Shown here: positions 20,335 through 42,262 of the stretch, piece by piece
How the letters are laid out: the number at the start of each line of letters is the position of its first letter
Numbering within the stretch: position 1 is the stretch's first letter
Assembly: GCF_007859855.1 (NCBI RefSeq)
Contig: NZ_SJPK01000007.1
Span: 148,542-212,541 of the forward strand
Length of the DNA stretch: 64,000 bases
Reading direction: 5' to 3'
Source: Allorhodopirellula solitaria
GTDB lineage: Bacteria > Planctomycetota > Planctomycetia > Pirellulales > Pirellulaceae
Program-made: the position numbers and the translations under genes
Notes under the pieces: generated by a model
What the model saw: only the letters and a program-made list of their open reading frames with translations
What the model was told of the DNA's origin: nothing
Database searches by the model: none

Positions 20335-20795
20335 GACGGAAAAGTCCAAATAAGCGAGCGGCGAAATCCAGCGACCTAGCCATAAGGAACGGTGACGGGC
20401 AGATTATCTCACGTAATCACCCCGATAAAGCTGGCGTGATTTTTGGATGCCCACCACCCAAAAAGGTTCCTGTGAATGAATACAGAAAAAACGGCTTGGA
20501 ACCCCAGTCGGAATGAACTCCCGCTCCTTTCAAGGGGGGCAGCCCCCTATCCGGACAGGTTCCCAAGCCTCCTAGGATAAATATCCAGAGCATCCGGAAC
20601 AACAGAAAAGATCGGTATTTGGCGAACAATCGATCGAGTAGCGGCCATTTTCAGGTCCGATTAGACGGGTTTTTGCCGTTGTGCCTCGTCGACACCGATC
20701 TCCAAAGCTGGCCCCGCGAGGTGGACGATGCCTACAATCTGTTGTCCCACGGCTCGGCCCACGAGCCCGGGTTCATTTCGCTGGAAAGGGTCTCG
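20335..20795. other. Divergent spacer with a nested hairpin
   Basis: 460 bp between the surface-protein gene and the HtrA gene. GGCTTGGAACC (20493-20503) pairs with GGTTCCCAAGCC (20558-20569) with one bulged base; inside it, AGGGGG / GCAG / CCCCCT near 20533-20549 gives a second stem. It could be a structured leader of the HtrA transcript or a dispersed repeat. No gene is supported; the in-frame TTG-started extension from 20619 has no signal-peptide logic. Confidence 0.45.
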
Positions 20796-22937: not shown

Positions 22938-22950
22938 TTCTGCTGGGTAC

Positions 22951-25631: not shown

Positions 25632-25914
25632 AATCGTCGGAACGTCCATCACAGAGGGTTACTTTTTTCTTTGGCCGTGAAAGTGAGCACCGCAGCGGTG
25701 CATTGACAACAACCCCGATCATCCCCGCAGCGGCGTCAAAAGATCAAGATCAGTTCGGAAATATCAGTCCCGCGCGCCAAAGCATGCGATTGCCCGCCAA
25801 GGCGAGCCTCTTTTACCGACGAACCCCATGGAGTCGTGCGGATGTGCCACAATTGGATCCAGGTGGGGCGGTCGTCCCCATCGGTTGCGTGGTCGCTGAT
25901 TTGAGGTGGAACTC

Positions 25915-26808
25915 ATGGTCGAACCGTCGGATGTCGCTTGGCTGCCGGGCGAACGGGATTATCAAATTGGCCTGGCGGGCGGCAAATTGGTGTGCCGCAA
26001 CCCCAAGGGCAAGACGCTCGCGTCGGTGCCGAAATGGTTGAAGGAATCCGAAACGGCAGAATCCCTGCGGGCCCTCGCCGAATGGCTCGACGATCACCGC
26101 AACGAATGCTTGCTCCGCGTCGAGCGTTGGATGTTGCGGTCGCTGCCGATCCCGCGTGATGTCCTCCAAGAAATCTGGCCGGACCCAGATTGGCGGTCCA
26201 GCTTGGAGAACCTCGTCGTCGCGCCAGTCGATGCCAAGGGCAAACCTGATTTCGAAAAAACAGGCCTGCTCCGCGACGTCGAGACTAAACGCGGATTCGG
26301 CGTGATCGATCTCGATGGCGAGACCCAGTGGCACAAGTCGCCTGCGGTCATGATGCCGCATCCGATCTTGATCGCCGACCTCGCCGAACTGCGGGAACTC
26401 GCCAGCGACCTGTCGATCTCACAAACGATCGATCAACTCTATCGCCCCGTCAATCAACCCACCGCCGAGCAAACGGAGTTGAAGTCAATCGACGATTACT
26501 CCGGCGGCATGTTCGAACAGCTCAATTTTGCGTTGTCTCTCTGCCGGCGACTCGGGTATCCCGTTCGCGGTGGCTACGCAACCTGCCGAATCTGGGAAAA
26601 CGACACGTTGATCGAGGCTCGCTACTACGTCGGTGACGAGTACCCGGAATCGGAAACCTACACCGGGCAGCTCGTGTTCGTCGATGCCAGCGAACGGGCG
26701 GTCAAGATCGCTGACCTCGGTGCGGTCACGTTCAGCGAAGGAGTACGGATGGCATCGGCGATCTATGCGAAACGGAAGGTCGAAGAGTCAGCGGAGAAAA
26801 CGGCATGA
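25915..26808 (+). CDS. DUF4132 (MolR-like) domain protein
   Basis: 297 residues, ATG at 25915 with GAGGTGGA just upstream. The chain reads as the DUF4132 domain found at the C-terminus of E. coli MolR/YehI: GKTLASVPKWLKESETAESLRALAEWLDDHR, then the helical ERWMLRSLPIPRDVLQEIWPDP, then MMPHPILIADLAELRELASDLSISQTIDQLYRP, matching the family's HPL...W...L..Y.I.QPF.QL.RP ending. No WGR domain is present, so it is a stand-alone version. The stop overlaps the start of the 1717-residue gene (ATGA, 4 bp), so the two are translationally coupled. It is the first gene of the YehI/L/M/P/Q-like cluster. Biochemical function is unknown. Confidence 0.72.
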   Translation: MVEPSDVAWLPGERDYQIGLAGGKLVCRNPKGKTLASVPKWLKESETAESLRALAEWLDDHRNECLLRVERWMLRSLPIPRDVLQEIWPDPDWRSSLENLVVAPVDAKGKPDFEKTGLLRDVETKRGFGVIDLDGETQWHKSPAVMMPHPILIADLAELRELASDLSISQTIDQLYRPVNQPTAEQTELKSIDDYSGGMFEQLNFALSLCRRLGYPVRGGYATCRIWENDTLIEARYYVGDEYPESETYTGQLVFVDASERAVKIADLGAVTFSEGVRMASAIYAKRKVEESAEKTA

Positions 26809-29800
26809 GCAGCGTGAAATCGAAACCAACCAAAGCAAAAAAGAGAACCGCTCAACAGGTGCGTTGGGATGCCCAGTTGGCTGCGGGAGGGATGGTGGCT
26901 GCGTCGGCCAAGGTCGATCAGAATGCCACCGAGAAGGTAGTCGCACGACGTTACACCGGAGCGGCACTGGGAGGCCGCGTGGTCGTTCGTTTGAGCGCCG
27001 ACCGACTGGGCCCCGCCGAAGACTTGGCGATGGAATTCCTCGGCCTGCAGCCCGCGGGTGAGAGCAAGCCGATTGGACAGCAGAGTCGCCAGGCACTTGG
27101 CTTTGCCAGCTGGGCGTTGATCCATCATCCCGAGAATGCCAAAGATGCGCTCGTGTTGGTCAAGCGGATCAAAGCGGCAGCGCGGAAGGCGAAGTCGAAA
27201 CCCGGCCACGCCATGGATGCCTTCGTGGAGATGGCTGGCGAGCTCAACCGCTCGGTGCGGCATTTCCTGCCTCCGTTTTGGGAGGAAGCGGCGAGGATTT
27301 ATAAAGACCTAGGCAACACCACCTACGCCGGGCGCGCGATCGGCAAAGCGTTGGAGGCCGAACGGGTTCACTCCCTCGCGGTCGATCCCATTCGGCGCCG
27401 CGATGCTGTGCTCGAGTTCACCCTCAGTGGCTGCCTCTCGGGGAAGGCATTGACGGAGTACACACGCGATCTGGCCAATCAGTTCGAGCCAGCCGAGGCT
27501 TTTGAAACGCTACTGGATTTAATGGTACGACGGACCATGGGCGGGATGCCACCGATGGCGACCGCGGCCAAGGATCTCGCCAAGTTCGCCAAAGCTGCCG
27601 ACCGGGATCCCGACACCGAAGTCGACGCGTTCTTGCTGGCGGTTATCTCATCGCCAGCGATGTCGCGGACATCGATGCAATTTTGGAAATCGGTCAAGAA
27701 GAACGTCGCCCGGATCGTCAAGCAGGACGACACGTTCGCGATGTGGTTACTCGCCCATACCGACCCACAGTCGTCCTACCAAGGCGACAGCCCCGTGTGG
27801 GCTTGGTTGGATTTGCTCGACACGTGGAATGTCTTGCCGCTGCTGGGCCGACCCACTTCCGATCTGCCCGAGGACGTTGAAATTCCTGGCGGACGGGCGG
27901 GCTGGATCGGTCGGCTCGCGTCGGTCGAGTCGTCGCCGAACTCTCGGGTCTTTGATCTCATCGCGTTGACGGCGGACGTGATCCGAGACGAAGCCGTTGC
28001 CATTGCGTTGGATCGTCGCGGGTACTACGGCGGTGTGCTCGATGTGGATGTGATCGAGCTGATGCTGGAACTCGAACTTCCGATCGCCGTTGCCGCCGAT
28101 CACCGCGAACTGAATTTTGATGGTTGGCTGCGGGCCGACGTCGATCATGACCGGCGCAACTCGCAATTGACTCACGTGATCGCTGACGAGCGATTTGGAC
28201 CCAAGGTCTACTCGCAACTGGAGTCCTTGGTCACCTTCACGGGCAGCACGCCGCGTCGGCATTCGTATGGCCGGGCGGTGCCGGCCCAGCGTAGCTTTGA
28301 AGCCGCCGCGGCTGATCATGCGGCCGTCCGCGAACTGTGGTGGCGGTTCCTCGATGACCACGTCAAGAATCTCGAATCGGGAGGACTCTGCGACGTCGAG
28401 GAAAGCCTCAACGTACTCGCCAAATGTGCCGGCCGGACAACGGGCGAGCAATTTCCCGAACTCGGCCCGCGATTGTCCAAGGTCGATTTCGTGGCGGCGC
28501 TCACGCGAACGCTCGCCGCCGGCGTGCTCGACGAATACGGCTGGCCCGCCCTCGACGCGTTCGGTGATGAGCGGAAACTCCCTCGCATCTCCGAGCACCG
28601 CTCCAAAGCTGTCGCTAGCTTTCCGTACCTGACGATGGTGGTCGATGGGAAGGTAGAGTCGTTCGGACCGGACGGCCATCAAACACTCGGTGAATTCCAA
28701 TTGGAAAAGGACCAGCATCTCGAGAAAATCATTCGCGTGCGCGATGACGCAGTAATCGGGTTGCTCGATAGAGGAACGGGCTATGAATACAAACTGGCTT
28801 GGTTGAGCGAAGGTGGCCAGGCAAAAGCGACCAGTCAGTATTTCTATGGGCTCAACGTCGACAGAATGATGCCCTGTGATGGTGGCGTGTTCTACGGCAC
28901 TCGGGTGCTCCACAGCGGTGACGATGTGCTACCCGAATCGCAACATTGGTTCTCCGACGGGGAGCGATTCTGGAATCAGAAGAATTTGTACAGGGCCTGG
29001 AACGAGTTCGATACCGATGAAGAAGAATCCGCGGCCGAGGCCGCAAAACGTTTGGGTCTGCAGGAGATCGACCCCGCCACGGGTAAAGCGATCCGTGATA
29101 GCGTCCCGGCATGGTTCGAGCAGAATCTGCCTGCGGGCGGGAAGATCCATTGGACGATGTCGCACCTGATGCCGGCACCGAGTTCGCTGAAACAATCACC
29201 ACTCGGTGTTGCCGGTGGCATGCTAGGTCTGCGTGTGGTTCGGCGGCGGGACCAGCAATTCGAAAGCTGCGGCGTCGATGGACGCCGCGTCGTGCTGGCA
29301 CCCTCGGCCGACGCGGGCATGCACTGTGCCGCAGCGATCGTGGACCGACCGGCCAGCGATTCGTATTGGTGTGTTTCCAATCAGGACGAACTCATTGACA
29401 TCGACTCCGGCATTCGAATTGCCTCGCTCAAGGGGAACCTGAGTCGATACCGAGAAGGCCAGCCGATCGGGTTGCCGCCCCTGTTCTTGCACTTCTTTCA
29501 GATTCGTTGCGCGGCGAGTTCGACCAAACTGCGAAAGGTGACCGCAGCGCAGTCGAAGAAACTCTTCGCGGCGGGTGCTGTCGAGCATGAAGCGTTGAAG
29601 ATCAAGGAAGACCCCAAGCATCCCGATGCCAATCGAACTGCCTGCGCCACCGCAGTGAGCAAGCTACTGCCGAAGGCGCCGCCGCGTCTCGTGCGCGGCG
29701 TGGCTCGCATCGCCCGCCTCGCCGCAGTGGAACAAATCTCGCTCGACAAATTGACACGAGCCGTGATGGGGATCGCAGACGAGGGCTCGGCATCAACCGC

Positions 29801-31958
29801 AACGGAATCGAAGAAAAAGACTCCTCTGGCGTCTGACAAAGCCATTGGTGCGGGGCTGTCAGAACTGTTCGTTGCGTTCGCTCCGTCGATCATTCCTCAA
29901 AGCTACCGAGGCCGATACCACGATACGGTCGATCCCAAACAGTTGACGACCATTGTTGACTTCCTTCGTGGTGGTGATGTCGAAACGATGCCCAAAGGTG
30001 ACAACTGGTACTTTGGCTTGATCGACGATGCGGCCGCAGTGGCGTGGAAAGTGTTCTGGCAACACGCACATGAGGGCGCCGACGCCGGGACACCGGTGGG
30101 CAAGCGACTGACAGGGGCCTGGCTCGACGCTTTGCGATTTATCGCAGACGGAGGGCTCTTGGATCTGCCAGGTAAACTGGTAGTCCACGTCGCGGCGGCT
30201 CCCGATAAAGCGGCTGCCAAAAAACTCGGCAAGGCGGGCAAGTACCCGAGCGATGAACGGCCAGCCGCGTTCGTGGAGGCGAAAACTCGACACATTGCTT
30301 ATAAGGTCGGTAACTACATGGCCGAGAAAGTCGTGATCTTGTCCTATGCCGAGTCTGGAAATCCCAAACCACCGAAGAGTTTTGTGATCGAGCACACCGT
30401 GCCTTTACAAAAACGCTGGGGTGGCGATCCCCTGCGGCGGTTTGTCGATGCGGTCGGCGACGTGGAAACTCTGCCGCTGATCCCCGCTGAGATGCTCGAC
30501 GCCGCGGCGGAGAAACTTGGTGTCACGCCCATCGAAGTCGCACTCGGTTGGATGGGAAATTTCCGTACAGTCGCGTACGGTCAAGAGAAACTGACCAAGG
30601 AACTGCGATCCCACTACGGTTGGAAAGTCAACGAGATCAAGGCCGCTGTGGTAGCGGCCGATGCTGATCCCGTTTCCCTCTCAGTCGTGGCCGAAGGGTG
30701 TCGTCGCAGTAGTGTCGGTGCGTTGGGCAAGAGCGTCGAGTTGGCGTTTCGTTTCATGGTCGATGCGTGGCAACAAGCCCGCAAGGTGTCGGTGAAGTTG
30801 CCCGCCGATTTGATCGGTAAGATGCAGTCGGTTCGGGCTGGCTATCAGACGCTCAATACGAAACTGCTCTGCGATCTACTAGCCGATCCGGCGGCGTCTC
30901 CCGTGCTCCAGCCTCGAGAACTGCATTTCGCCTATGGAACGAAGTATCGTCAGCAGGTACTCAGCGGCACGCTAACGCCGCCGATGACGTTCAGTATCGA
31001 TGCGGTGCTGCCGAATCTCCCGGCGGCGATCGCGTTTGTGAACTACCAATTGCCACACGGAGACGAAGCGAGAAAGAAAATTCCGGCGTTGATCGATGCG
31101 GTACGAGAATACCTCGACAATCCCAACGTGGTTCTGCCGATGGGGTGCCGCCGAACCGAACCCTACCACACCGATCAAACCACCGACGTCGACGGAACCA
31201 TTGAGAAATTTTCGGCTATGATCGCCAAGTGCGAACAGACCGCCGAGGGCTTCTACACCTTCGACAGCGGCCTGATCGTTGGCGCCGTGATGCCACCGGC
31301 GGTGGATCAATGGTTCCGCCCTGCCCGACTGCACACGGACAAAGAGGATGCCGCTCTGCTCGTTGCCGCCGCACTGACGTTTGATTGGGAAACCGATGGA
31401 ACCGCGCATCTCCAGTTCGCTGAGATGGTGCGAGCCATGCGAGGCGAGGAGCTAACGAATATTCGCCAGGGCAACCGCGATGACGACTCATCCATTGCCG
31501 AAGGGCAATGGGAACAGGATCCACGAATCTCCGCAGCCGATACCGTCGCCAAGGTGAAGAAGAAGCTCAAAGTCAGCGAAGACGCCGCTGCGTTGTACCT
31601 GCAGATTCTCGCCCTTCACGACTGTACCAATGCGAACCTAAAAAGATGGAATGGCTGGACCACCACGCAATTGAAGGCGGCGACATCGGAATTGGTCGAA
31701 AGCGAATATCTCGTCTCGGCCAAACGCAGTCGCGCCGGACGCGATGCGTTCCTGCCCGGTGGTTGGGAGCCCTTGAAATTACCGAATCTACCCATCGAGA
31801 GCTGGAAACTGACGATGTTCGGGTACGAGAACACCGATCGATTGCGCGGTGGTTACGCCAATCTAATCGTTTGCCCACGCCGCGTCGGCGATCAATTCCG
31901 GCTGGCCTGGCAGCGGGTTTGCGACGGAGACCCACCCAAATACGAAGAGACCCTCTAG
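26805..31958 (+). CDS. 1717-residue protein of a MolR/YehI-type cluster
   Basis: Start ATG at 26805 overlaps the previous stop. The N-terminus is Lys-rich (KSKPTKAKKRTAQQVRWD). Helical segments fill about 60-500. A beta-rich region of about 600-900 has short repeats such as DGKVESFGPDGHQTLG, IIRVRDDAVIGLLDRGTGYEYKLAWL, MMPCDGGVFYGTRVLHSGDDV and GRRVVLAPSADAG, which look like blades of a beta-propeller (inference from the pattern, not a family match). The C-terminal third is alpha/beta, ending in a winged-helix-like segment (TTTQLKAATSELVESEYLV). No signal peptide or membrane segment is seen, so it is cytoplasmic. In E. coli the corresponding position is taken by large MolR/YehI proteins. Repeat array B starts 6 bp after the stop, separating this gene from the ATPase gene. 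Confidence 0.6.
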   Translation: MSSVKSKPTKAKKRTAQQVRWDAQLAAGGMVAASAKVDQNATEKVVARRYTGAALGGRVVVRLSADRLGPAEDLAMEFLGLQPAGESKPIGQQSRQALGFASWALIHHPENAKDALVLVKRIKAAARKAKSKPGHAMDAFVEMAGELNRSVRHFLPPFWEEAARIYKDLGNTTYAGRAIGKALEAERVHSLAVDPIRRRDAVLEFTLSGCLSGKALTEYTRDLANQFEPAEAFETLLDLMVRRTMGGMPPMATAAKDLAKFAKAADRDPDTEVDAFLLAVISSPAMSRTSMQFWKSVKKNVARIVKQDDTFAMWLLAHTDPQSSYQGDSPVWAWLDLLDTWNVLPLLGRPTSDLPEDVEIPGGRAGWIGRLASVESSPNSRVFDLIALTADVIRDEAVAIALDRRGYYGGVLDVDVIELMLELELPIAVAADHRELNFDGWLRADVDHDRRNSQLTHVIADERFGPKVYSQLESLVTFTGSTPRRHSYGRAVPAQRSFEAAAADHAAVRELWWRFLDDHVKNLESGGLCDVEESLNVLAKCAGRTTGEQFPELGPRLSKVDFVAALTRTLAAGVLDEYGWPALDAFGDERKLPRISEHRSKAVASFPYLTMVVDGKVESFGPDGHQTLGEFQLEKDQHLEKIIRVRDDAVIGLLDRGTGYEYKLAWLSEGGQAKATSQYFYGLNVDRMMPCDGGVFYGTRVLHSGDDVLPESQHWFSDGERFWNQKNLYRAWNEFDTDEEESAAEAAKRLGLQEIDPATGKAIRDSVPAWFEQNLPAGGKIHWTMSHLMPAPSSLKQSPLGVAGGMLGLRVVRRRDQQFESCGVDGRRVVLAPSADAGMHCAAAIVDRPASDSYWCVSNQDELIDIDSGIRIASLKGNLSRYREGQPIGLPPLFLHFFQIRCAASSTKLRKVTAAQSKKLFAAGAVEHEALKIKEDPKHPDANRTACATAVSKLLPKAPPRLVRGVARIARLAAVEQISLDKLTRAVMGIADEGSASTATESKKKTPLASDKAIGAGLSELFVAFAPSIIPQSYRGRYHDTVDPKQLTTIVDFLRGGDVETMPKGDNWYFGLIDDAAAVAWKVFWQHAHEGADAGTPVGKRLTGAWLDALRFIADGGLLDLPGKLVVHVAAAPDKAAAKKLGKAGKYPSDERPAAFVEAKTRHIAYKVGNYMAEKVVILSYAESGNPKPPKSFVIEHTVPLQKRWGGDPLRRFVDAVGDVETLPLIPAEMLDAAAEKLGVTPIEVALGWMGNFRTVAYGQEKLTKELRSHYGWKVNEIKAAVVAADADPVSLSVVAEGCRRSSVGALGKSVELAFRFMVDAWQQARKVSVKLPADLIGKMQSVRAGYQTLNTKLLCDLLADPAASPVLQPRELHFAYGTKYRQQVLSGTLTPPMTFSIDAVLPNLPAAIAFVNYQLPHGDEARKKIPALIDAVREYLDNPNVVLPMGCRRTEPYHTDQTTDVDGTIEKFSAMIAKCEQTAEGFYTFDSGLIVGAVMPPAVDQWFRPARLHTDKEDAALLVAAALTFDWETDGTAHLQFAEMVRAMRGEELTNIRQGNRDDDSSIAEGQWEQDPRISAADTVAKVKKKLKVSEDAAALYLQILALHDCTNANLKRWNGWTTTQLKAATSELVESEYLVSAKRSRAGRDAFLPGGWEPLKLPNLPIESWKLTMFGYENTDRLRGGYANLIVCPRRVGDQFRLAWQRVCDGDPPKYEETL

Positions 31959-32493
31959 ATTCAACCCAGGGCGTTGCCCTGAGCTTTCATACCGCCGCCC
32001 CGTTCGGGGCCAAACAGAACCCCCGCCCCAGGGAGGGTAAACAGCCACGGCTCTCGCCCCAACGGGGCAGTCCTATGACAGCCCCAGGCAACGCCTGGGG
32101 AATCCGACGCCAACACATCACGCCAGCCCCAACGGGGCGGTCCTATTGACACACGCCACCCTATCGAGCGGACAGAAGGGCCGCCCCGTTGGGGCTACCA
32201 AACCGTCTCACCATTCAACCCAGGGCGTTGCCCTGGGCTTTCATACAGCCGCCCCGTTCGGGGCTAAACAGAAACGCCGCCCCAGGGAGGGTAAACAGCC
32301 ACGGCTCTCGCCCCAACGGGGCAGCCCTATGACAGCCCCAGGCAACACCTGGGGAATCCGACGCCAATACGTCACGCCAGCCCCAACGGGGCGGTCCTAT
32401 TGACACATGACACCCCATCGAGCGGACAGAAGGGCCGCCCACGTTGGGGCTACCAAACCGTCTCACCATTCAACCCTGGGCTTTCATACAGCC

Positions 32494-33034
32494 GCCCCGT
32501 TGGGGCTAAAACAGAACGGAGCTGGACATGTCGCAATCGCTCGCCAATGTCACATTGCATTTCGTGTTCTCAACGAAAAATCGACAACCGTTACTGCAAC
32601 CCGTGGGACTACGCAACGAACTCTACGCCTACATGGCAACGATCTTGACGGACAATGTCGACTCACCGGCGATCATCATTGGCGGTGTCAAAGACCACAT
32701 CCACGCCCTGGTCAATCTCAGTCGAAATCACGCGATCAAAGACGTCGTTCAAACAATGAAAACCGAAACCAGCAAATGGCTCAAGAAGCAATCAACCGAA
32801 CTGCGAAACTTCTCTTGGCAAGCGGGTTACGGCGTGTTTTCGGTAAGCCAATCCATCGTCCCCAATTGCAAAGGTTACATCGCCCACCAAGAGGCTCATC
32901 ATAAGAAGATCGACTTCCAAGACGAGTTCCGCAAGATGTGCAAGGACGCCGGAATCGAGATTGACGAACGGTATGTCTGGGATTGAACGCCATCGATATT
33001 CGCCACAAAACCACCCAATTCGCCCCAACGGGGC
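32494..33034 (+). mobile_element. IS200/REP-transposase-type element bounded by array palindromes
   Basis: Left boundary palindrome GCCCCGTTGGGGC at 32494-32506 and right boundary GCCCCAACGGGGC at 33022-33034 enclose only the transposase gene and short flanks. These are the palindromes that border the non-coding linker in neighbouring units, so the ordinary unit can be read as the same element without its gene. Exact cleavage sites cannot be fixed from one copy. Confidence 0.65.
32528..32986 (+). CDS. Y1 (HUH) tyrosine transposase, IS200/REP-associated type
   Basis: 152 residues, ATG at 32528 with GGAG 7 bp upstream. The HUH metal motif is H57-I-H59 (GGVKDHIHALVNL), and the nucleophile is Tyr117 in the YxxxQ helix GYIAHQEAHHKK. 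VTLHFVFSTKNRQPLL at the start is the usual first beta-strand of the family. All catalytic parts are intact, so it could be active. Enzymes of this family cut single-stranded DNA beside hairpins, forming a 5'-phosphotyrosine link; the REP-associated subgroup is domesticated to mobilise or maintain short palindromes. Being the only gene inside a six-unit palindrome array points to the REP-associated mode. No TnpB-like gene is present. Confidence 0.88.
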   Translation: MSQSLANVTLHFVFSTKNRQPLLQPVGLRNELYAYMATILTDNVDSPAIIIGGVKDHIHALVNLSRNHAIKDVVQTMKTETSKWLKKQSTELRNFSWQAGYGVFSVSQSIVPNCKGYIAHQEAHHKKIDFQDEFRKMCKDAGIEIDERYVWD

Positions 33035-33775
33035 AGCCCTATGACAGCCCCAGGCAACGCCTAGGGAATCCGACGCCAACACATCACGCCAGCCCCAACG
33101 GGGCGGTCCTATTGACACATGACACCCCATCGAGCGGACGGAAGGGCCGCCCCGTTGGGGCTACCAAACCGTCTCACCATTGGACCCAGGGCGTTGCCCT
33201 GGGCTTTCATACAGCCGCCCCGTTGGGGCTAAGACAGAAACGCCGCCCCCATGGAGGGCCAAACAGAAACGCCTCTCGCCCCAACGGGGCAGCCCTATGA
33301 CAGCCCCAGGCAACGCCTGGGGAATCCGACGCCAACACATCGCGCCAGCCCCAACGGGGCGGTCCTATTGACACACGTCACCCTATCGAGCGGACAGAAG
33401 GGCCGCCCCGTTGGGGCTACCAAACCGTCTCACCATTGGACCCAGGGCGTTGCCCTGGGCTTTCATACAACCGCCCCGTTGGGGCTAAACAGAAACGCCG
33501 CCCCAGGGAGGGTAAACAGCCACGGCTCTCGCCCCAACGGGGCGGTCCTATTGACACATGACGCCCCATGGAGCGGACGGAAGGGCCGCCCACGTTGGGG
33601 CTACCAAACCGTCTCACCATTGGACCCAGGGCGTTGCCCTGGGCTTTCATGCAGCCGCCCCGTTCGGGGCTGAACAGAAACGCCGCCCCGCTCGGGGCTA
33701 GCACTAAAACTTCGCCCCTGCGGGGGCTAAAACAAGCTAACTCATCCCTATTTCCATCCAAAGGTCGATTCAATC

Positions 33776-34942
33776 GTGGCTAAGAAAAAAGCGACATCCA
33801 GAGCGGCTTCGACTCGCGTGCAACTGCCGCCCGCGGAGGTTCGTTATGCGGAGGAACTCACTGCATTGTCGGCGTCCGACTCCGCTCCCCGGCCTGAGGG
33901 CTGGGCGCTGTCGCCGCAGGCGGTGGTGGACTTTATCTGTGGCAGCGATGGGGTGAAGGTCGGCAAGACCAAAGCGGGGGCGCGCGTGATCACGGAGAAG
34001 TTCGTGGGCCCGCGTGATATTGTTCAGCGATGTGTCGTGACGCTCGCCGGTGAACGAGGCTTGATGCTCGTCGGGGAACCGGGCACGGCCAAGTCGATGC
34101 TCGGCGAACTGCTCGCCGTCGCGATCAGCGGAACCGGCTCGCTCGCAGTCCAGGGGACCGCCGGGACGACTGAGGATCAAATTCGCTACGGCTGGAACTA
34201 TGCCATGCTGCTCGACCGCGGTCCGGTGCGGGAAGCGCTCGTGCCCTCGCCGGTGATGACGGCGATGCGAGACGGCAAGGTCGTCCGATTCGAAGAGATC
34301 ACTCGCTGCCTGCCGGAGGTCCAGGATGCCCTGATCTCGATCTTGAGCGAACGGCGATTGATGATTCCTGAAATGGATCAAGCGGGTGACGGGGAAGGTA
34401 ACAGTATCTTTGCGGCGCCCGGGTTTGCCATGATCGCGACTGCCAACTTGCGTGACCGCGGCGTTTCGGAGATGTCGGCAGCATTGAAGCGACGTTTCAA
34501 CTTCGAAACGATCGCGCCCATTGCTGACGAAGTCCGTGAGCGTGAATTGGTATCGACCCGCGCGGCCGCTCTGTTGGCGGAGACCGGTTCTCCCGTCGCG
34601 GTGGACCAATCACTGATCGAGTTGCTGGTCACGGTGTTCCGTGATCTGCGCAGCGGTCGCAGCGATGAGGGATGGCAGGTGACTCGGCCGAGCACGGTGA
34701 TGAGCACTGCCGAGGCGGTCGCGGTCGCTACAGCGATCACTCGTGAAAGTGTATTTTTCCCCAGTGGATTTGATCCGGTATCGCGAATGCCGGGACACCT
34801 GCTCGGCGTCGTCATGAAAGACGAAGCCAAGGACCGCGAACGATTGCTCGCCTATTGGGATGGACCGGTCCGGCGGCGAGCCGAAGACGGGGGCCCGCTG
34901 TGGAAGCGATTGGTGGAGCTGCGAGGGGACCTGGAGGAGTGA
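33776..34942 (+). CDS. MoxR-type AAA+ ATPase (YehL-like)
   Basis: 388 residues from GTG 33776 (reads MAKKKATSRA). Walker A is GEPGTAKS at 100-107, Walker B VVRFEE at 169-174, sensor 1 in ATANLRDRG (221-229), and the arginine-finger region is LKRRFNF (237-243). The typical MoxR segment VQDALISILSERRLMIPE is present. MoxR ATPases act as chaperone-like remodellers with vWA partners, often for metal or cofactor insertion. The stop and the next start share one base (TGATG), preceded by GGAGGAG, so it is tightly coupled to the DUF5682-vWA gene. Size and neighbours match E. coli YehL. It now lies behind array B, which may separate it from the promoter of the upstream genes. Confidence 0.88.
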   Translation: MAKKKATSRAASTRVQLPPAEVRYAEELTALSASDSAPRPEGWALSPQAVVDFICGSDGVKVGKTKAGARVITEKFVGPRDIVQRCVVTLAGERGLMLVGEPGTAKSMLGELLAVAISGTGSLAVQGTAGTTEDQIRYGWNYAMLLDRGPVREALVPSPVMTAMRDGKVVRFEEITRCLPEVQDALISILSERRLMIPEMDQAGDGEGNSIFAAPGFAMIATANLRDRGVSEMSAALKRRFNFETIAPIADEVRERELVSTRAAALLAETGSPVAVDQSLIELLVTVFRDLRSGRSDEGWQVTRPSTVMSTAEAVAVATAITRESVFFPSGFDPVSRMPGHLLGVVMKDEAKDRERLLAYWDGPVRRRAEDGGPLWKRLVELRGDLEE

Positions 34943-37900
34943 TGGATTCCTTCGAATTCGATCCGTCGATGCCGGTGCTGGCGCAGTCACGCAGACCATT
35001 TTTGATCGGGGTTCGCCATCATTCGGCGGCGCTCGCCCGAGCTCTGCCAGCGATGCTCGACGGGTTCGCGCCAGAATGCGTACTCGTTGAGCTGCCGTCG
35101 GACCTGCAGGACTGGATCGAACATCTCGCCGATCCGCAAACAATCGCGCCCGTGGCGATCTCCGCGGTGCACGATCAGTCCGGATTGTTCTTCTATCCGA
35201 TGGCGGATTTTTCGCCCGAGTGGGTCGCGATCCGCTGGGCCCGCAGGCGGGGAGTGCCCGTGGTGGCTTGCGATCTATCGGTCGCGGCCAAGACCCACTT
35301 GTCGGCAATCGAATCGACCGAACCGGATGATCCGCCCGACGGTGAAATCGCCACCACGCTGCTGGATCGGCTGCTCCAACGCACCGGCCAATCCGATACA
35401 GGAGCATTGTGGCAGCGATTGGTTGAATCGCCCGGATTCGACTCGGACGCCGAATCGATCCGGAACGCGGCATTGTTGTTTGGCTATGCCGTGCGTCAGA
35501 GCACGCCGCAGGTCTCACCGCGTGACCTCGTCCGTGAAGCCGCCATGCGCGAGGCGATTCGCGCCGCCCCGGAGCAGAGCGCGGCGGTGATCGGCTCCTT
35601 TCACGCGGCCGCTTTGCTTCCCGATGTGATCGTGTCGGAGCGGGATCGCGATGCCGCGATGCTAGCCGAATCGAAGGCCGAGTCCGCTGATGCGGTCGGC
35701 GTATCGCTGGTGCCCTATTCGTTTGACCAACTCGACGAACGCAGTGGCTACCCGGCAGGTGTCCGCGATCCCGTCTGGCACCAGCGGATGTGCGAATCAA
35801 CGTCGTCGCAAGCGGCAGACGCGGCCGCCGCCGAGCTCGTCACTGCCGTTTGCCGGCAACTGCGTCGAGCCGGTCACGTTGCCGGCATGCCTGACGCGAC
35901 GGAGACACTCCGCATGATGCGGGATCTGGCGCGGCTACGCGGTCTCGGCACCGCCGGCCGGGGCGAGCTCGTCGAAGCGATCGAGTCATGTTTGGTCCAA
36001 GGCGATTTGATGGGACGTGGGCGAGCGGTCGCCAAAGCAGCGGGCGAAGTACTGATCGGCGATCGGACGGGTCAGGTAACACCCACCACACCTCGCTGCG
36101 GGCTCGCCGTCGATATCGATCGGCAACTCGAAGCGTTGAAACTGCCGGGTCGTGATTCGTTTGCCAGCCGATCCCGCCCGACTCGCCGAGCATCGAGCGG
36201 CGTACCCATGCATGCTGATGAAGATGCCAAGGAGATCAAGCTCGATGTTCTGCGTCAGCCGCGCGATCGAGCACGTGCGGTTGTGCTGCGGCAGTTCAGT
36301 GCGGCCGGAATCCCCTATGCTGAGCGTGTCGATGAAGTCCAACGTGGTCACCGCGAGAACCTGATCGAACGCTGGCGGGTCGGTTGGCAACAAGGGACCG
36401 CCGCCACGATCGAATCGGTTTCGCGTTACGGTGTCACGCTCGGTCAAGTCGTCGAGGGGATCGTGCGAGGGGCGGGTCGGATTCCTGGCCAGGAAGCTTC
36501 CGAGACGGAGGACTTGCCCGCGACGATATTGCACCGTCTGCAAATCGCCACGCAGTGTGGTTTGGTCCGGCTGACGCGGCAATCGCTACACCAGATCGGT
36601 GATTCCTTTCGCGCGGCGGCTGGATTGTCCGAGCTCATGGCGGCGACGACCATTGCCACCCGAATCCGCGCCGGGCACCTGCCGGGTTTGCCGGCGGACG
36701 CCGAATCTGCCTACCCGCCGTGGGTGCAAGCATTTGTCTGGCCGGAGTCACTCTCGACCATCCATTCCTGCTTGCAGGCCGCCATGCAGCGGCTAGCCGG
36801 TCTGAGCGGGTCGAACGATCCCACCGATGTCATTGCCCTGGTCGATCTACTGGACTGGATGACGGGTGACCTGCAAGCCTCGGTGATGGCCGATATCGAT
36901 CAGCCGCCCTCTCAATCGGGGCGCGTGCGTCTAACGCATTGGTGTCGTCAAACAATGCGCAGCGGCAGCGACCGCATGGGTGGTGCCGGAGCGGGCGCAC
37001 TGTGCGTCTTGAATGAACAGCGTGACGCCGAGTTCGCTGCTTTGACGCGGGGTTGGCTGGACTCGGCAACCGATCAGGCGGGGCGAGCACGACTGAAGGA
37101 ATCGCTCGCCGGTGCGACCCAAGTACTCTTGCCGAGAATGCAGAGTGACGCGGCCTGGCTATGCGGGATCCGCGATGGCATTCGACCTATGAGCGACGAA
37201 GTGTTCCTATCCAGGCTGCCTTCACTGCGCGGTGCTTTCTCTGAATGTTCACCCGCTGACCGCCAGCGTTTGTTGCAGGTCAGTCTATCGGACTTGGACG
37301 AGCGAGGTTCACGACTGGACGAGCAGGGTGCCACCTTGTCTTACCGACAACAGCACAACCCCGATGCCATCGCCGATGAGCTGGTCCGACTACGACGAGC
37401 CGACTTGGCCGGTCGCGCGGCAGTCGAGGCGAAGTATCCAAACACCATCTCGTGGACCGGAGCTGAAAGACCGAGCCAGAGTGCAGCGAGTACCGATCCG
37501 CTGGATCGAGTCGATGAGATTGCAGCGAGTGTATCCAATGGCGATCTACCGCTGGCTGACCGCTGGCGTTTGATCTTTGGATTGCCACCGGAATCCAACT
37601 CACCGATGTCGATCCGGTGTGCTACATCGTTGGACCAGTTGTACGGTCGCGGCCGTGGCGAAGGCGCACGTGCGGGGCTGGCCAATCGTCCCGGTGCCGG
37701 TGGTGGGACGGAGGCACCGCAACCTTCCACGGCCCAATGGGCAGAGGATCTCGAGGCTCTATTCGGCAGCGATCTATGTCAGGAGGTCCTGGGGGCAGCG
37801 GCGGGTGCAGGCCGGTCGACGGCATTAGAGCTACTCGATCCCGATTCGGTCACCCCATCAATCGAACTGCTCGAACAAGTCCTCTCGCTCGCCGGTGCGA

Positions 37901-38670
37901 TGCCCGAGTCGAAGGCCGCGACGCTGCGGCGTTTGGCGCGCCGGATCACGGAGGATCTGGCCCAGCAACTGGCGGTGCGACTGCAACCGGCCTTGAATGG
38001 CCTGTCATCGCCACGTCCCACCCGCCGCCGGGCACGCAAACTCAATCTCGCGCGGACAATCCGAGACAATCTTGCGAACTGCTATCGTCGACCTGACGGG
38101 CGTGCCACGATGGTGGCCGAGCGGTTGATGTTTCAATCACCCGCGAAACGTCAAATGGACTGGCACGTCATCTTCGTCGTCGACGTCTCGGGTTCGATGT
38201 CCGCTTCGGTGATCTACAGCGCCCTCGTCGCGGCCGTGCTCGATGCTCTCCCTGCGCTATCGGTGAAGTTCCTAGCATTCAGCACGGAGGTGATCGACTT
38301 GAGCGAACAGGTCACCGATCCCTTGTCGCTCCTGCTAGAAGTGCAGGTCGGTGGGGGCACTCAGATTGGACTCGGACTCCGCGCCGCGAGGGCAGCTGTC
38401 ACGGTCCCCTCACGCAGCATCGTCATCTTGGTTTCTGATTTTGAAGAGGGTGTGTCGGTCGGCCAAATGATTGGCGAGGTTCGCTCACTCGTCGATTCGG
38501 GAGTCACCTGTCTGGGTCTGGCGGCGCTCGATGACCGTGGGGTCGCGAGGTATCACGAGGGCTACGCTGCGATGGTAGCGGGAGCGGGGATGCACGTGGC
38601 TGCGGTCAGCCCTGAGAACCTGGCCCGCTGGATTGGCGATCAAATCCGCGGGGCACAGGCGGGCCGATGA
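34942..38670 (+). CDS. DUF5682 protein fused to a C-terminal vWA domain (YehM-YehP fusion)
   Basis: 1242 residues from ATG 34942; a longer frame would need a TTG inside the ATPase gene. The N-terminal part opens with RRPFLIGVRHHSAALARALPAMLDGFAPECVLVELPSD, the signature of DUF5682 (YehM). The C-terminal part, about 1065-1240, is a vWA domain: VIFVVDVSGSMSASV holds the MIDAS DxSxS motif near residue 1081, GGGTQIGLGL supplies the conserved Thr, and ILVSDFEEG the conserved Asp. In E. coli YehM and YehP are separate proteins; their fusion shows that they work as one unit. The vWA part is expected to contact the MoxR ATPase. A region of about 930-960 is Gly/Arg-rich and probably flexible. No signal peptide. 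Confidence 0.83.
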   Translation: MDSFEFDPSMPVLAQSRRPFLIGVRHHSAALARALPAMLDGFAPECVLVELPSDLQDWIEHLADPQTIAPVAISAVHDQSGLFFYPMADFSPEWVAIRWARRRGVPVVACDLSVAAKTHLSAIESTEPDDPPDGEIATTLLDRLLQRTGQSDTGALWQRLVESPGFDSDAESIRNAALLFGYAVRQSTPQVSPRDLVREAAMREAIRAAPEQSAAVIGSFHAAALLPDVIVSERDRDAAMLAESKAESADAVGVSLVPYSFDQLDERSGYPAGVRDPVWHQRMCESTSSQAADAAAAELVTAVCRQLRRAGHVAGMPDATETLRMMRDLARLRGLGTAGRGELVEAIESCLVQGDLMGRGRAVAKAAGEVLIGDRTGQVTPTTPRCGLAVDIDRQLEALKLPGRDSFASRSRPTRRASSGVPMHADEDAKEIKLDVLRQPRDRARAVVLRQFSAAGIPYAERVDEVQRGHRENLIERWRVGWQQGTAATIESVSRYGVTLGQVVEGIVRGAGRIPGQEASETEDLPATILHRLQIATQCGLVRLTRQSLHQIGDSFRAAAGLSELMAATTIATRIRAGHLPGLPADAESAYPPWVQAFVWPESLSTIHSCLQAAMQRLAGLSGSNDPTDVIALVDLLDWMTGDLQASVMADIDQPPSQSGRVRLTHWCRQTMRSGSDRMGGAGAGALCVLNEQRDAEFAALTRGWLDSATDQAGRARLKESLAGATQVLLPRMQSDAAWLCGIRDGIRPMSDEVFLSRLPSLRGAFSECSPADRQRLLQVSLSDLDERGSRLDEQGATLSYRQQHNPDAIADELVRLRRADLAGRAAVEAKYPNTISWTGAERPSQSAASTDPLDRVDEIAASVSNGDLPLADRWRLIFGLPPESNSPMSIRCATSLDQLYGRGRGEGARAGLANRPGAGGGTEAPQPSTAQWAEDLEALFGSDLCQEVLGAAAGAGRSTALELLDPDSVTPSIELLEQVLSLAGAMPESKAATLRRLARRITEDLAQQLAVRLQPALNGLSSPRPTRRRARKLNLARTIRDNLANCYRRPDGRATMVAERLMFQSPAKRQMDWHVIFVVDVSGSMSASVIYSALVAAVLDALPALSVKFLAFSTEVIDLSEQVTDPLSLLLEVQVGGGTQIGLGLRAARAAVTVPSRSIVILVSDFEEGVSVGQMIGEVRSLVDSGVTCLGLAALDDRGVARYHEGYAAMVAGAGMHVAAVSPENLARWIGDQIRGAQAGR

Positions 38671-38731
38671 AATCGATGACGCGATGGAGATGGTATTTCT
38701 CACCGTTTGTTGGGCTTGGAAAGACGAAGAC

Positions 38732-40618
38732 ATGACGACATCTCGCCCCACTCTCACCTCCGAGTTGCTCGCCGCGATCATCGACGCTGCGCCGGGCCGG
38801 GTCCGCAAACGGCTCGATCGTCAACCCGCTGCGGCCAGCGACTGGAGCTGGAATCACGCAGCCCACGTCTGGACGATCCAGGCGGGCGAAGAAACGGTTC
38901 GTCTGCAGGTAGACGCTGACGACCATTTGACAACGATCAACGATGTGGCTTGCTCCTGCCTGCTCTCACCGAAGTGCTTCCACGTGCTCGCCTGCGTGAC
39001 GTCGCTGGCCGTCCATGATCCGACATCCGTTGCCGAAGCGGAGTCTGCTGCCGATGAGAGTTCGTCGCCGAATCGGACGTCATCTGAAATAGGCACCGAT
39101 GTCAATGCCGGCGATCCTATCGAGATCAGTGACGCGGTGCGTCAGGCTGCAATCGCGAGCCTCCGGGCGATCGACGGGGTCTTGGTCAGTGGAGCGCGAG
39201 CGAGCGGTGTGATCATCCAATCCTCGCTCCTGCGGGCGGCCCACCAAGGGCGAGCGGAGGGATTGGTTCACCTCTCGGCAGCCCTGATCCGCACCGCTGA
39301 GGGTATCCAGCGACTGCGCCGCGGCGATGATCACACCGATAGCGAAGCACTTCGTCGCGATATCGTCATCGCTATCGATGCCGCCGCTGAACTGCGCCAA
39401 TCCGAGACTCTCACGCCAGCGAAAACTGGCTTCGCTCGCCGACCCTTTTCGCCGGTGTCGCTGCGATCACTCGATGGTGCGGTGGCCGAACCCATCCTGA
39501 CTCGGAGCGGCTACGCGGGCGTGGCGACCCATCTGATCGGTGACGATCAACAGCTTTATCAGATCGTCGAAACGCGCCCTGGCGATGCCACCTTGATCGG
39601 TCAAGCTTATCGGGGAGGGATCGATCTGGGAACAACCACGGCTTCGGCGCAGACGCTTAGCCGATCGCATCTCGACGTCCAAAACTTGAGCTGTTCGCCT
39701 GACGGACGACTCGGCAAAGGCAGCAAAACTCGCTGGGCGATCGATCGCAAGAACGACACTGCGATTGGCAGCGGCTCGTCGTCATGGGAGCGATGGTCTG
39801 TGCCGTTGGGCGATCAAGTTGCCGCGGTCTTTGAACAAGCGACGAGTCCCGCGTGGCTGCGGCGAGGCGGATGGGACTTGGTCTGTGTGCGCGGCGTGGT
39901 TCTCGGCGTGAGCGGTCGTACAGTGGCGTTGGAGCACGAGGGCAGCGGAGCTCGGTTGAGGTTGGGGATCTCGATCGATCATGCGTCGCTCCCATTCCGA
40001 GAGAATCTGCAGCTCCTCGCACGCTGCCCGGGGCTGGCCGTGGAAGTGGTCGGCCGCGTGCAACTGGATCAAGCCGGACTCATTGATGGGTTGACTCTGC
40101 GCGGCTTGTCTGACGACTGGATATTGCCGGATTCCTGGGCCGGACGCTGTCATCTGGGGCTCGACAGATTGCAACGACACCATCTGCGGAGCCCTGAGCG
40201 GTTTGCCTCGGAGGTCGATGCCCCGCCCGCCGAGCCGCTGCAGCCCGGTTCGTCGCGACAACCGGACACCCGCTCAAGCTCGCAGACCGATCTCTTCTCT
40301 GGACTGGAACGCCACTGCACCGCCTTGGTGCTCGGTGGCCGCGACGCGGTGGGCTCGATCGGCTCGGCCTCGCATCGCCGCGATCAGGCGAGGTTGGTAT
40401 CGCGGGGCCAGGTAGCCGCGGCAAGCCTACTGGATTCGCTCGCGATGGCCTGTGCCGAAGCGCCCGCGGTCACGCGTCGCAATCGTCTGGCTGAAGACAA
40501 TAGGCATCTCCAGCGTCCACTCGTACTCGCTGCTGCTGCGGCATACCTCGATGCATCCCGCCGTTTCTACGAGCGAGAGCAGTGGATGCGTGTCCTCGGC
40601 TGCCCAGACCTTGATTGA
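38732..40618 (+). CDS. SWIM zinc-finger protein (YehQ-like)
   Basis: 628 residues from ATG 38732, 61 bp after the vWA fusion gene; an in-frame ATG at 38684 is possible. The SWIM motif CxC-n-CxH is complete: C74-S-C76 and C82-F-H84 in VACSCLLSPKCFHVLACV. SWIM domains bind zinc and usually DNA or protein. The rest is alpha/beta with no other recognised domain (ILPDSWAGRCHLGLDRLQRHHL, SVSLRSLDGAVAEPI). Position and SWIM domain match yehQ at the end of the E. coli yehL-M-P-Q genes. It is the last gene of the cluster. Confidence 0.8.
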   Translation: MTTSRPTLTSELLAAIIDAAPGRVRKRLDRQPAAASDWSWNHAAHVWTIQAGEETVRLQVDADDHLTTINDVACSCLLSPKCFHVLACVTSLAVHDPTSVAEAESAADESSSPNRTSSEIGTDVNAGDPIEISDAVRQAAIASLRAIDGVLVSGARASGVIIQSSLLRAAHQGRAEGLVHLSAALIRTAEGIQRLRRGDDHTDSEALRRDIVIAIDAAAELRQSETLTPAKTGFARRPFSPVSLRSLDGAVAEPILTRSGYAGVATHLIGDDQQLYQIVETRPGDATLIGQAYRGGIDLGTTTASAQTLSRSHLDVQNLSCSPDGRLGKGSKTRWAIDRKNDTAIGSGSSSWERWSVPLGDQVAAVFEQATSPAWLRRGGWDLVCVRGVVLGVSGRTVALEHEGSGARLRLGISIDHASLPFRENLQLLARCPGLAVEVVGRVQLDQAGLIDGLTLRGLSDDWILPDSWAGRCHLGLDRLQRHHLRSPERFASEVDAPPAEPLQPGSSRQPDTRSSSQTDLFSGLERHCTALVLGGRDAVGSIGSASHRRDQARLVSRGQVAAASLLDSLAMACAEAPAVTRRNRLAEDNRHLQRPLVLAAAAAYLDASRRFYEREQWMRVLGCPDLD

Positions 40619-40801
40619 TCGGGGGAAGCGAGCCAGCCGCTTCGTAGGTGTTAGAATAACTGGGCGGACAACAGTGTTGGTAACCCCCGCACCGACGACG
40701 TTCGGAGCCGATCCCCAAGACGGGTTCTGAGCTGAACATGTTTTGCCGCCCTTCGTTTCACCACCTCCGCCGTTTACCGCGCGCTGAAGGACCATCCCAC
40801 G

Positions 40802-42262
40802 ATGACATATCCACACAATTGGGTCAGCTCCTGTGCCGCTGTCCTCGCGGTCGCGTTTCTGCTTTCGGACTGTTCTGCCGACGATGTGACGAAGGCCTTG
40901 AATGAGAGTCGTCAATCGATGGCTCAGCAGTGGACCCCCGACATGGCCAACGATGTCGACTTTGAGTGGTTGGATTTCAACGGAGATTCGGGCTCGATCA
41001 AGAGGCTGCCCGATGGCCTGCGGCATCATCACAGCATGACCGATGGGGTTCGCGGAATCCGCGCATGCATCTCGCTCGGGGGCGATTTTGATATACAGGT
41101 AAGCTACCACGACCTCGAGATCAGCGAGGGCGAGCCAACGTGGCACTGCGGTATCGGCTTGGTGGTGCAACTAGACAATCACGACCGCAATCGTGTCACC
41201 ATCTATCGGCGCCGAGATCGCATCGATGGGCAGCACGTGTTAGCGATGACTCGTCAAGAACTAGGCGAGAATGGCAAGATGACGTACGTCGACGGCACGC
41301 AGGTAGCCGATGATTCGGTCGCCGGGCGATTGCGGTTGGCCCGTCGCGGCACGACCCTGACGGCTCTGCAGTCGGACCGGGAGGGGCATCATGAGCGCGT
41401 GATCGGTACCGTTGAGGTCCCGCCGGGGCCGGTCGAGGTTCAGGGCGTGCGGTTGATCACTCAAGTCGGCAAAGGGCTTGAAACCACCGTCACGTGGAGC
41501 GATCTGCGAATCCATGCTCAACAGATCGAAACTTACACGCTTCCGCCGGCTGGTTTGACCGCCACCGAACTGACGGCGCAGCTGGACGCCAATCGAGAGA
41601 ACATGGCCGACCTGGCCAACAAAGTGGACGAGACAACGGGTCAAGGCGGTCTTTCCTGGACGCTCACACCGGGCGCCACGATTGCGCCCGACGAGCCAGG
41701 ATTTCGCTTGCTCGTCGAAGCGTCGGGTGATGTCGAATCCGCCATCATTCGCAAACGCTGCGATACCCGAGGTGACATGGACCTGGAAACGTCACTGCGT
41801 ATCCTTCATATCGATCCGTCGACCAAACCCTCGACTAACAATGACGTGACGTTGCGGTTTTCTGCGATCCCGCAAGTAGAAGTTGACCAAGGTGTCGGCC
41901 GCCTTCGCGAGGACCGCACCGTCGAGATTGCCGAAGCGACACTCTCGCTGCGGTACAAGGAAGACGGGACCAAGGAACTCAATTGCCGCACGGTGGGGCG
42001 AAACCACCTCGGGCGAGTCGTCTATCGTCCCATCCGCTCGATACCGGTCGACTCGATCGACCAGATGCGGATCGCGGTTTCGGACCGAACGCTGTACTTT
42101 TTGTACTCGCTGCCCGATGACGATGAGAGGATCGTCCTGGCCCGGCTTCCCTTCAAGAACGATTTCGTCATCCGTGAGATCGGGGTCGCCCAGACAGCCC
42201 GAGGCGCCACCGGCCGCTCGGAAGTTCAATGGAAGAAGGTGCAGATCTTTGCCGACGAATGA
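40802..42262 (+). CDS. Exported protein of unknown function, two concanavalin-like halves (DUF1583-like)
   Basis: 486 residues, ATG at 40802 after GAAGGACC. The signal peptide is about 1-26 (CAAVLAVAFLLSDCSA); the Cys near the end is not in a good lipobox. Two similar beta-rich parts follow: FDIQVSYHDLEISEGEPTWHCGIGLVVQLDN..VTIYRRRDR, and later GDMDLETSLRILHI..DVTLRFSAIP..ATLSLRYKEDGT, each ending in a strand like VTWSDLRIHAQQ or VQWKKVQIFADE. This looks like a duplicated lectin-like (LamG/concanavalin) sandwich as in planctomycete DUF1583 proteins. The family name is a weak guess; export and the internal duplication are firmer. Confidence 0.6.
   Translation: MTYPHNWVSSCAAVLAVAFLLSDCSADDVTKALNESRQSMAQQWTPDMANDVDFEWLDFNGDSGSIKRLPDGLRHHHSMTDGVRGIRACISLGGDFDIQVSYHDLEISEGEPTWHCGIGLVVQLDNHDRNRVTIYRRRDRIDGQHVLAMTRQELGENGKMTYVDGTQVADDSVAGRLRLARRGTTLTALQSDREGHHERVIGTVEVPPGPVEVQGVRLITQVGKGLETTVTWSDLRIHAQQIETYTLPPAGLTATELTAQLDANRENMADLANKVDETTGQGGLSWTLTPGATIAPDEPGFRLLVEASGDVESAIIRKRCDTRGDMDLETSLRILHIDPSTKPSTNNDVTLRFSAIPQVEVDQGVGRLREDRTVEIAEATLSLRYKEDGTKELNCRTVGRNHLGRVVYRPIRSIPVDSIDQMRIAVSDRTLYFLYSLPDDDERIVLARLPFKNDFVIREIGVAQTARGATGRSEVQWKKVQIFADE

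Follow-up and report, generated by a model that had tools for sequence, protein, structure and literature searches.

We analyzed a 64,000-nucleotide stretch of the planctomycete Allorhodopirellula solitaria (contig NZ_SJPK01000007.1, positions 148,542 to 212,541; hereafter the window, with position 1 at its first letter) and found at 25915-40618 five open reading frames (ORFs), all on the + strand. They encode a DUF4132 protein, a 1717-residue protein that we call BIG, a MoxR ATPase, a fusion of DUF5682 with a von Willebrand factor A (vWA) domain, and a SWIM-type zinc-finger protein. We propose, at roughly even chances, that the cluster encodes a MoxR/vWA remodelling machine of the NorQ/NorD kind whose vWA plug carries a predicted Tiki-type hydrolase. 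The gene set itself, including its ATGA and TGATG couplings, had been read from the letters in an initial annotation and was confirmed here.

A MoxR ATPase encoded next to a DUF5682-vWA fusion

The MoxR gene (33776..34942, +) encodes an AAA+ ATPase with the P-loop GEPGTAKS. Its product matched PF07728 (AAA_5) at an E value of 7.5e-37 and showed 47% identity to Escherichia coli YehL over 375 aa (E 5e-107), which agrees with the earlier assignment to the YehL kind. P-loops of the GxPGTAKS form were present in 81 of the 88 MoxR rows of our locus set, duplicates included. This ORF overlaps by TGATG with the next one (34942..38670, +), in which two Pfam families were matched strongly, DUF5682 (E 1.9e-134) and VWA_CoxE (E 1.1e-50). 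Pairwise, residues 18-404 and 680-778 of the product aligned with E. coli YehM and residues 873-1235 with YehP. Since a single ORF aligns with YehM and then with YehP, the YehM-YehP fusion suggested initially is real. The vWA half displays the metal ion-dependent adhesion site (MIDAS) pattern DVSGS / GGT / SD, and its match stops 6 to 12 residues before the C terminus of the fusion protein, with no C-terminal propeller. The view, already taken in the initial annotation, of a remodelling complex made of an ATPase and a vWA adaptor was supported.

The last gene of the cluster probably starts at 38732, not 38633, and ends at 40618 (+), giving a SWIM-type, YehQ-like protein of ~628 aa. Neither a Pfam match nor a pairwise match to YehQ was found for this protein; the profiles of the SWIM family and of YehQ matched at E 2e-31, and all 11 aligned SWIM-protein sequences, the window's included, keep CxCx5CxH unchanged, which bears out its identification as SWIM/YehQ-like. 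Counting duplicates, the CxC..CxH pattern is present in all 32 SWIM rows of our loci.

At the other end of the cluster, the stand-alone DUF4132 protein (297 aa; 25915..26808, +) matched PF13569 significantly (E 2.7e-25, 89.8 bits, cut-off 27), as had been expected of it. It is the sole PF13569 match in this genome and is 53-86% identical to its counterparts in 10 relatives. Its ORF overlaps by ATGA with that of BIG (26805..31958, +), for which searches of Pfam, NCBIfam and PADLOC up to E 0.1 and of PHROG up to E 0.001 returned nothing. For the cluster as a whole, NCBIfam likewise yielded nothing specific.

E. coli K-12 (NC_000913.3) has the same MoxR, DUF5682, vWA_CoxE and SWIM order in yehI-yehL-yehM-yehP-yehQ, with the DUF4132 gene upstream; yehM and yehP are separate genes there and fused in the window. 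E. coli YehI is one protein of 1210 aa with DUF4132 at residues 954-1138, the only part that the window shares, and no BIG lies among the annotated genes of the E. coli yeh region. BIG takes the place of the long N-terminal part of YehI and, by profile comparison, bears no detectable similarity to YehI. BIG as a diverged YehI was considered and rejected, the best profile match having an E value of 0.068 over 31 columns with a YehI profile of 7 rows only. When loci from other genomes were mapped (L and G numbers denote loci and genomes), three types were distinguished: type A, with DUF4132, BIG, MoxR, fused DUF5682-vWA and SWIM; type B, with a YehI-like protein, MoxR, DUF5682, vWA and a YehQ-like protein; and type C, with MoxR, DUF5682 and vWA and neither BIG nor YehI. 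The window cluster is of type A and lies outside the YehI-type clade, and YehI-type clusters also occur in Pirellulaceae. Thus, the kinship with yehL-M-P-Q and the common gene order held, whereas the idea of a simple Yeh cluster with a fusion did not, BIG being not detectably YehI and the clade a separate one. Likewise, DUF4132 is indeed encoded by a separate ORF, but it is not merely a split-off part: its partner is not detectably YehI-like, and in L143 the two form a single ORF of 1945 aa with DUF4132 in front.

A predicted TraB/Tiki-like domain in DUF5682

A model of fusion residues 1-870 (mean predicted local distance difference test score [pLDDT], 79.6) contained a predicted TraB/Tiki-like domain at about residues 18-290, followed by a long helical C-terminal region. 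When the DUF5682 model was searched with Foldseek, the best match in the PDB was a 383-aa Tetrahymena complex IV subunit (7w5z_E/8b6h_DQ; probability 1.00, E 0.017), and in BFVD a TraB-family protein of Marseillevirus ranked first (probability 1.00, E 0.010). Tetrahymena complex IV includes a TraB-family subunit, according to the available text of PMC10060162. Searched against PDB sequences, the DUF5682 profile matched nothing beyond a designed protein (E 1.7).

The TraB and EreA families were each absent from close relatives (0/30 genomes), and therefore E. coli YbaP and plasmid TraB proteins (6 of 20 listed records fetched) served as the source of a TraB profile. The DUF5682 profile scored 34.7 against this profile of seven proteins, aligned at the second motif, compared with a maximum of 19.3 for 60 column shuffles, 15.4 for the reversed profile and 20.6 for seven other families. 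Alignment revealed one motif order, GxxH, E, R, GxxH, common to DUF5682 and TraB-family proteins such as YbaP, and H26, E50, R198, G218 and H221 are invariant in 83/83 distinct DUF5682 sequences, YehM included (89 rows, from which 6 exact duplicates were dropped). GxxH/E/R/GxxH is reportedly the hallmark of the TraB/Tiki family, as recognized by Bazan in 2013 and by Sanchez-Pulido and Ponting in the same year. Because the N-terminal domain of DUF5682 is predicted to be TraB/Tiki-like and carries this conserved motif set, DUF5682 probably acts as a hydrolase, possibly of the metallopeptidase kind, or else as a binding module that descends from such an enzyme. The available part of PMC12329661 describes Tiki proteins as metalloproteases. 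Unlike the TraB/GumN (Tiki) family, DUF5682 has the long helical C-terminal region and a putative link to an AAA+ ring.

Several observations weigh against the proposed machine and its hydrolase. Both Foldseek E values are weak, with low query-normalised template modelling scores (TM-scores; 0.15 for the PDB match and 0.12 for the BFVD match). Chain 7w5z_E/8b6h_DQ could not be confirmed as the TraB subunit of complex IV, and a sequence search with YbaP did not retrieve it. The hidden Markov model of the TraB family, PF01963, did not match the fusion. The TraB profile match, which spans 32 columns at the second motif, had a probability of only 31%, and the seven rows of that profile include two near-identical sequences and one fragment. 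The G23 of the first GxxH is kept in 64/83 DUF5682 sequences and is P in 19/83. Beyond the domain itself, the contacts between ring and plug are drawn by analogy, a SWIM-family gene was present in just 20/27 type C loci, and the type A co-occurrence counts given below are not independent because type A is one clade.

The weak Foldseek E values and the short profile alignment would also fit a TraB-like signal that arose by chance, in which case DUF5682 would be a helical scaffold with an unrelated alpha/beta domain. Two structure libraries agree, however, and the shuffle and family controls scored far below the match, and we regard a chance signal as unlikely.

MoxR, DUF5682 and vWA remain constant while the large partner is swapped

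The compositions of the mapped type A, B and C loci show that MoxR, DUF5682 and vWA are constant, that a SWIM protein is usual, and that the large partner is swapped from type to type. When 27 type C loci were clustered, a further gene family was found in 20 of them, a second in 11 and a third in 7; of the members of these extra families tested with Pfam, two were SWIM proteins, one was a HEAT-repeat protein and one a DUF5691 protein. Beside MoxR, DUF5682 and vWA, loci L055-L060, L063, L066, L127-L130 and others, all of type C, carry a gene of the SWIM family together with one for a HEAT-repeat or DUF5691 protein. A long-ORF family is common to four type C loci (L055:12272-15109, L056:12453-15314, L127:8629-10185 and L130:469-3333). 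DUF5682 was also seen in L064, L065 and L071 with no detectable MoxR or vWA gene in the fetched 20 kb.

We sampled 149 genomes of the family and 372 of the phylum. DUF5682 was present in 41/149 and 34/372 genomes, respectively (33 of the latter above the cut-off), and BIG in 17/149, some as pieces, and credibly in 6/372. A seventh match to BIG in the phylum (G360, L158) was a kinase/M64-peptidase protein and was discarded as chance. DUF5682 accompanied BIG in 16/17 family genomes and 6/6 phylum genomes, the only BIG genome lacking it being G128, which is 78% complete. The corresponding Fisher p values, 1e-9 for the family and 4e-7 for the phylum, are optimistic owing to relatedness. Two genomes combine types, A with C in G148 and A with B in G140.

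To count gene orders, we considered BIG matches of >1100 residues, one per distinct BIG, and left split copies (L061/L114) and fragments outside. The order DUF4132-BIG-MoxR-[DUF5682-vWA]-SWIM was found in 20 of the resulting 34 loci (counting L143, where DUF4132 and BIG share a single ORF), so the full order recurs in relatives, as the initial annotation had anticipated. Three loci were rearranged: the MoxR-fusion-SWIM block is inverted in L072 and L073, and SWIM is upstream and divergent in L084. The remaining 11/34 were incomplete or divided, 8 of them limited by the end of the contig or of the fetched stretch. As for the other three, the locus of G009 is divided, with DUF4132-BIG and MoxR-fusion-SWIM on different contigs (L092 and L078, both kept), L105 shows no DUF5682 within ~7 kb after MoxR, and L109 shows no DUF4132 in the 8 kb upstream of BIG. 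Further variants were observed: L108:8387-18495 has DUF4132 followed by two tandem BIG copies, and in L061:3151-15600 BIG, DUF4132 and SWIM are each split in two ORFs by frameshifts or assembly errors.

A profile scan of contigs for BIG retrieved 23 loci, 22 from Planctomycetota (Aquisphaera and Singulisphaera among them) and one from a Myxococcales metagenome-assembled genome. BIG was also matched in ten plasmid records, 8 of Streptomyces and 2 of Embleya. Seven of these records were fetched, and the three long-match Streptomyces megaplasmids carry all five genes in order; the other four (L164-L167) have DUF4132-BIG or BIG pieces only. Among the latter, the Embleya megaplasmids L165 and L166 bear BIG pieces, and their fetched stretches matched neither MoxR nor DUF5682; a Streptomyces plasmid protein of ~830 aa (L167:8081-10570) matches only the last ~440 positions of BIG in another gene context.

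In a MoxR tree of 82 distinct sequences (88 rows less 6 exact duplicates), a clade with a support of 100 united the 33 type A rows with one more whose BIG sits on a different contig and held no YehI-type rows; type B was not one clade. As no YehI turned up in its vicinity, L146 received the label C, yet its row was placed among B rows. A second tree was built from MoxR, DUF5682 and vWA of 38 clusters, hand-picked as having all three proteins, and rooted at the midpoint; here A (100), B (91) and C (100) were separate. DUF5682 and vWA are fused in 27 of the 33 type A MoxR rows, no DUF5682 was seen in 4, and 2 (L108 and L115) were truncated where the fetched stretch or contig ended; fused rows outside the A label are L078, of the divided locus, and L135. 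On the 38-cluster tree the fusion state changed at least twice, most simply by gains at the base of A and at L135 within B. These changes support the earlier claim that the fused parts act as a working unit. Transfer between the phyla is plausible, but the approximately unbiased (AU) test (p 0.20) did not show a transfer from planctomycetes to Streptomyces.

A possible NorQ/NorD-like remodelling machine

NorQ/NorD-type pairs likewise consist of a MoxR ATPase and a partner with an N-terminal domain, a C-terminal vWA domain and a MIDAS, as described in the available part of PMC9976466. In that account, a NorD monomer binds a NorQ hexamer, the vWA domain is proposed to plug the pore, and further proposals let the MIDAS bind the client and the N-terminal domain give specificity. 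Unlike NorQ/NorD in the same text, the window has DUF5682 as its N-terminal domain and three further linked proteins.

The data establish the domains, the fusion, the gene order, the clades, the exchange of the large partner and the constancy of the motif residues; past these we infer each step, from the fold and enzyme activity to the ring-plug mechanism and target choice. MoxR would form an ATPase ring, and the vWA domain would serve as the plug or adaptor that binds it, as NorD does for NorQ. In the type A branch the plug would be covalently joined to DUF5682, which sits where the N-terminal domain of NorD sits. ATP hydrolysis in the ring may then bring the DUF5682 module to bear on a target, by moving or exposing the module, and the large partner may choose or present that target, be this partner DUF4132 with BIG (type A), YehI (the E. 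coli type) or, in type C, a protein of the HEAT or DUF5691 kind. The SWIM protein would be the usual zinc-binding accessory.

The same architecture bears on another explanation, a maturation chaperone for one metalloenzyme or complex of the NorQD or CbbQO type, with DUF5682 as a noncatalytic target-binding or stator domain. An N-terminal domain with a C-terminal vWA matches NorD (PMC9976466, available part), and the accessible portions of PMC9976466 and PMC8926400 give chaperoning or cofactor insertion as the function of known MoxR/vWA pairs. However, no client gene is prominent: SWIM and HEAT/DUF5691 genes recur most often as additional neighbours in type C, and type A flanks were compared in two relatives. 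The invariant TraB-type residues moreover argue for an active site. We consider a dedicated chaperone doubtful.

Properties of BIG and a possible role in damage response

BIG was modelled over residues 1-1200 (mean pLDDT, 83.8). The model comprised a predicted helical N-terminal part (~100-590) and a predicted beta-rich, propeller-like middle (~600-880), with 21 strands of at least 3 residues in residues 600-880. Human UBR4 was the sole Foldseek match below E 0.001 (E 3.5e-4, 9% identity over 908 columns, TM 0.12); lower matches included clathrin, WD40 and Kelch propellers, with probabilities up to 1.00 and TM-scores <0.35. A profile search of PDB sequences with BIG gave nothing significant. 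The C-terminal domain, i.e., the last 160 residues (~1560-1717), is conserved among aligned BIG sequences. A winged helix was tried for this domain but drew no significant match in the PDB (Nse1 at E 0.56 with the whole profile; a VP2 chain at E 0.39 as the best match with the C-terminal profile).

In L116, the DUF4132 protein beside BIG carries an N-terminal WGR domain, and in E. coli MG1655 the WGR protein YehF is encoded near yehI. The former observation favors a DNA-damage or desiccation response factor that would act on nucleoprotein via DUF4132/WGR and SWIM, as does the strong upregulation of the DUF4132 protein DRA0166 of Deinococcus radiodurans upon DdrO depletion, reported in the available part of PMC8533742. 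Streptomyces BIG is also annotated as a DNA-binding protein, but this annotation has no NCBIfam match behind it, and neither sequence searches nor the model covering residues 1-1200 revealed a DNA-binding fold in BIG. Such a response factor seems to us very unlikely.

Comparison with biological conflict systems

The initial annotation had raised a defence role. We accordingly weighed an anti-phage or anti-competitor conflict system of the MoxR-vWA ternary kind, in which DUF5682 would be the effector and DUF4132-BIG the sensor. Like the window cluster, the ternary systems of Kaur et al. 2020 (PMC7159879, seen in its main text) include a vWA partner and a MoxR ATPase, which in two of them has a GXXXTAKS P-loop. 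Their third component has TPRs and a beta-propeller; BIG has the modelled helical part and propeller-like middle, at low TM-scores. A bpMoxR domain above the curated cut-off and a vWA chain with a C-terminal beta-propeller count among the defining features of the Kaur systems, whereas the window MoxR reached 22.5 bits against Pfam bpMoxR, below the 27-bit cut-off, and its vWA chain has no such propeller. The likeness to these systems therefore lies in the P-loop and the predicted propeller-like region; the two other defining features do not hold here. DUF5682, yeh, MolR, SWIM and DUF4132 are absent from the main text of PMC7159879.

Circumstantial evidence for conflict also comes from occurrence. 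The distribution of BIG given above is patchy, and the same five genes occur on three Streptomyces megaplasmids. Six genomes of the same genus differ, three having BIG and type A, two type C and one neither. Two genes that flank the cluster in the window were found away from it in G045 and G115. As a precedent, Arc2 of Pseudomonas aeruginosa (PA4317-23) is described as including a vWA protein and an ATPase of the MoxR type; according to the available part of PMC8926400, it protects specifically, and to some degree, against the ColA of a rival.

Direct support was not found. The five proteins had no match in PADLOC 2.0.0 except one at E 0.042, and BIG was unmatched in 50,697 phage records. PHROGs matched the cluster proteins with ATPase families only, apart from the unnamed families phrog_31592 and phrog_30700 on the DUF5682-vWA fusion. 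Among ten neighbours, the PADLOC matches were trypsin-PDZ, TPR and DprA-like proteins, which we read as family-level, and no swap of the effector part was seen within type A. Thus, the circumstantial case for defence (patchiness, plasmids and the Arc2 precedent) stood and the direct one (PADLOC, neighbours and phage records) did not, and we judge a conflict system improbable. As to the biological role of the proposed remodelling machine, stress or damage response or conflict would be our guess.

In the open-access literature searched, DUF5682 was not found; nor did any two of MoxR, DUF5682 and DUF4132, or any two of DUF5691, SWIM zinc finger, MoxR and WGR domain, occur in one paper. Two of YehL, MoxR and YehP do occur together in print, so YehL may be treated in work on MoxR, and a genome report names three or more of six yeh/molR genes.

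Repeat block and neighbouring genes

The five genes are not contiguous, a 1.8-kb block separating BIG from MoxR. It holds an array of GC-rich palindromic repeats resembling repetitive extragenic palindromic (REP) elements (31959..33720; no strand assigned), with six copies of a 71-nt unit, and within the array lies an IS200-type Y1 transposase ORF of 152 aa (32528..32986, +; PF01797, E 2e-21; NCBIfam transpos_IS200, E 4.8e-15). In 28 other loci with BIG and MoxR on the same strand, the gap up to where the MoxR profile match begins is -22 to 675 bp, and the block therefore looks like an insertion; we place it outside the machine. The one-strand cluster described initially thus holds, although not as an unbroken one. 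The palindrome occurs 27 times in the window with at most 1 mismatch, versus 0.05 expected, a second array of this REP-like, GC-rich palindromic kind lies at 22280-22940, and related repeats were seen in many other places of the genome. Rfam gave nothing at gathering threshold within 25600-40900.

Elsewhere in the window, positions 47781-48962 encode a DprA-like protein (DNA_processg_A, E 2.2e-72) whose PADLOC matches, ShosA and PsyrA, are probably family-level. Positions 14647-20349 encode a protein of 1900 aa that combines cadherin, SdrD_B and dockerin domains.

Implications

E. coli K-12 has these genes, annotated merely as putative, uncharacterized or by domain. The five-gene set in Planctomycetota and Streptomyces, the fusions in two branches and the DUF5682 motifs offer a testable mechanism for genes of unknown function. 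Tentatively, and as a possibility only, the machine may represent a new class of AAA+-powered enzymes, in which a MoxR ring drives a vWA plug covalently tied to a TraB/Tiki-type hydrolase and interchangeable giant subunits (DUF4132 with BIG, YehI, or HEAT/DUF5691) direct it, E. coli YehL-M-P-Q being the same engine in pieces. If true, this would link MoxR/vWA machines to the Tiki/TraB family of animals and mitochondria (PMC12329661, available part).

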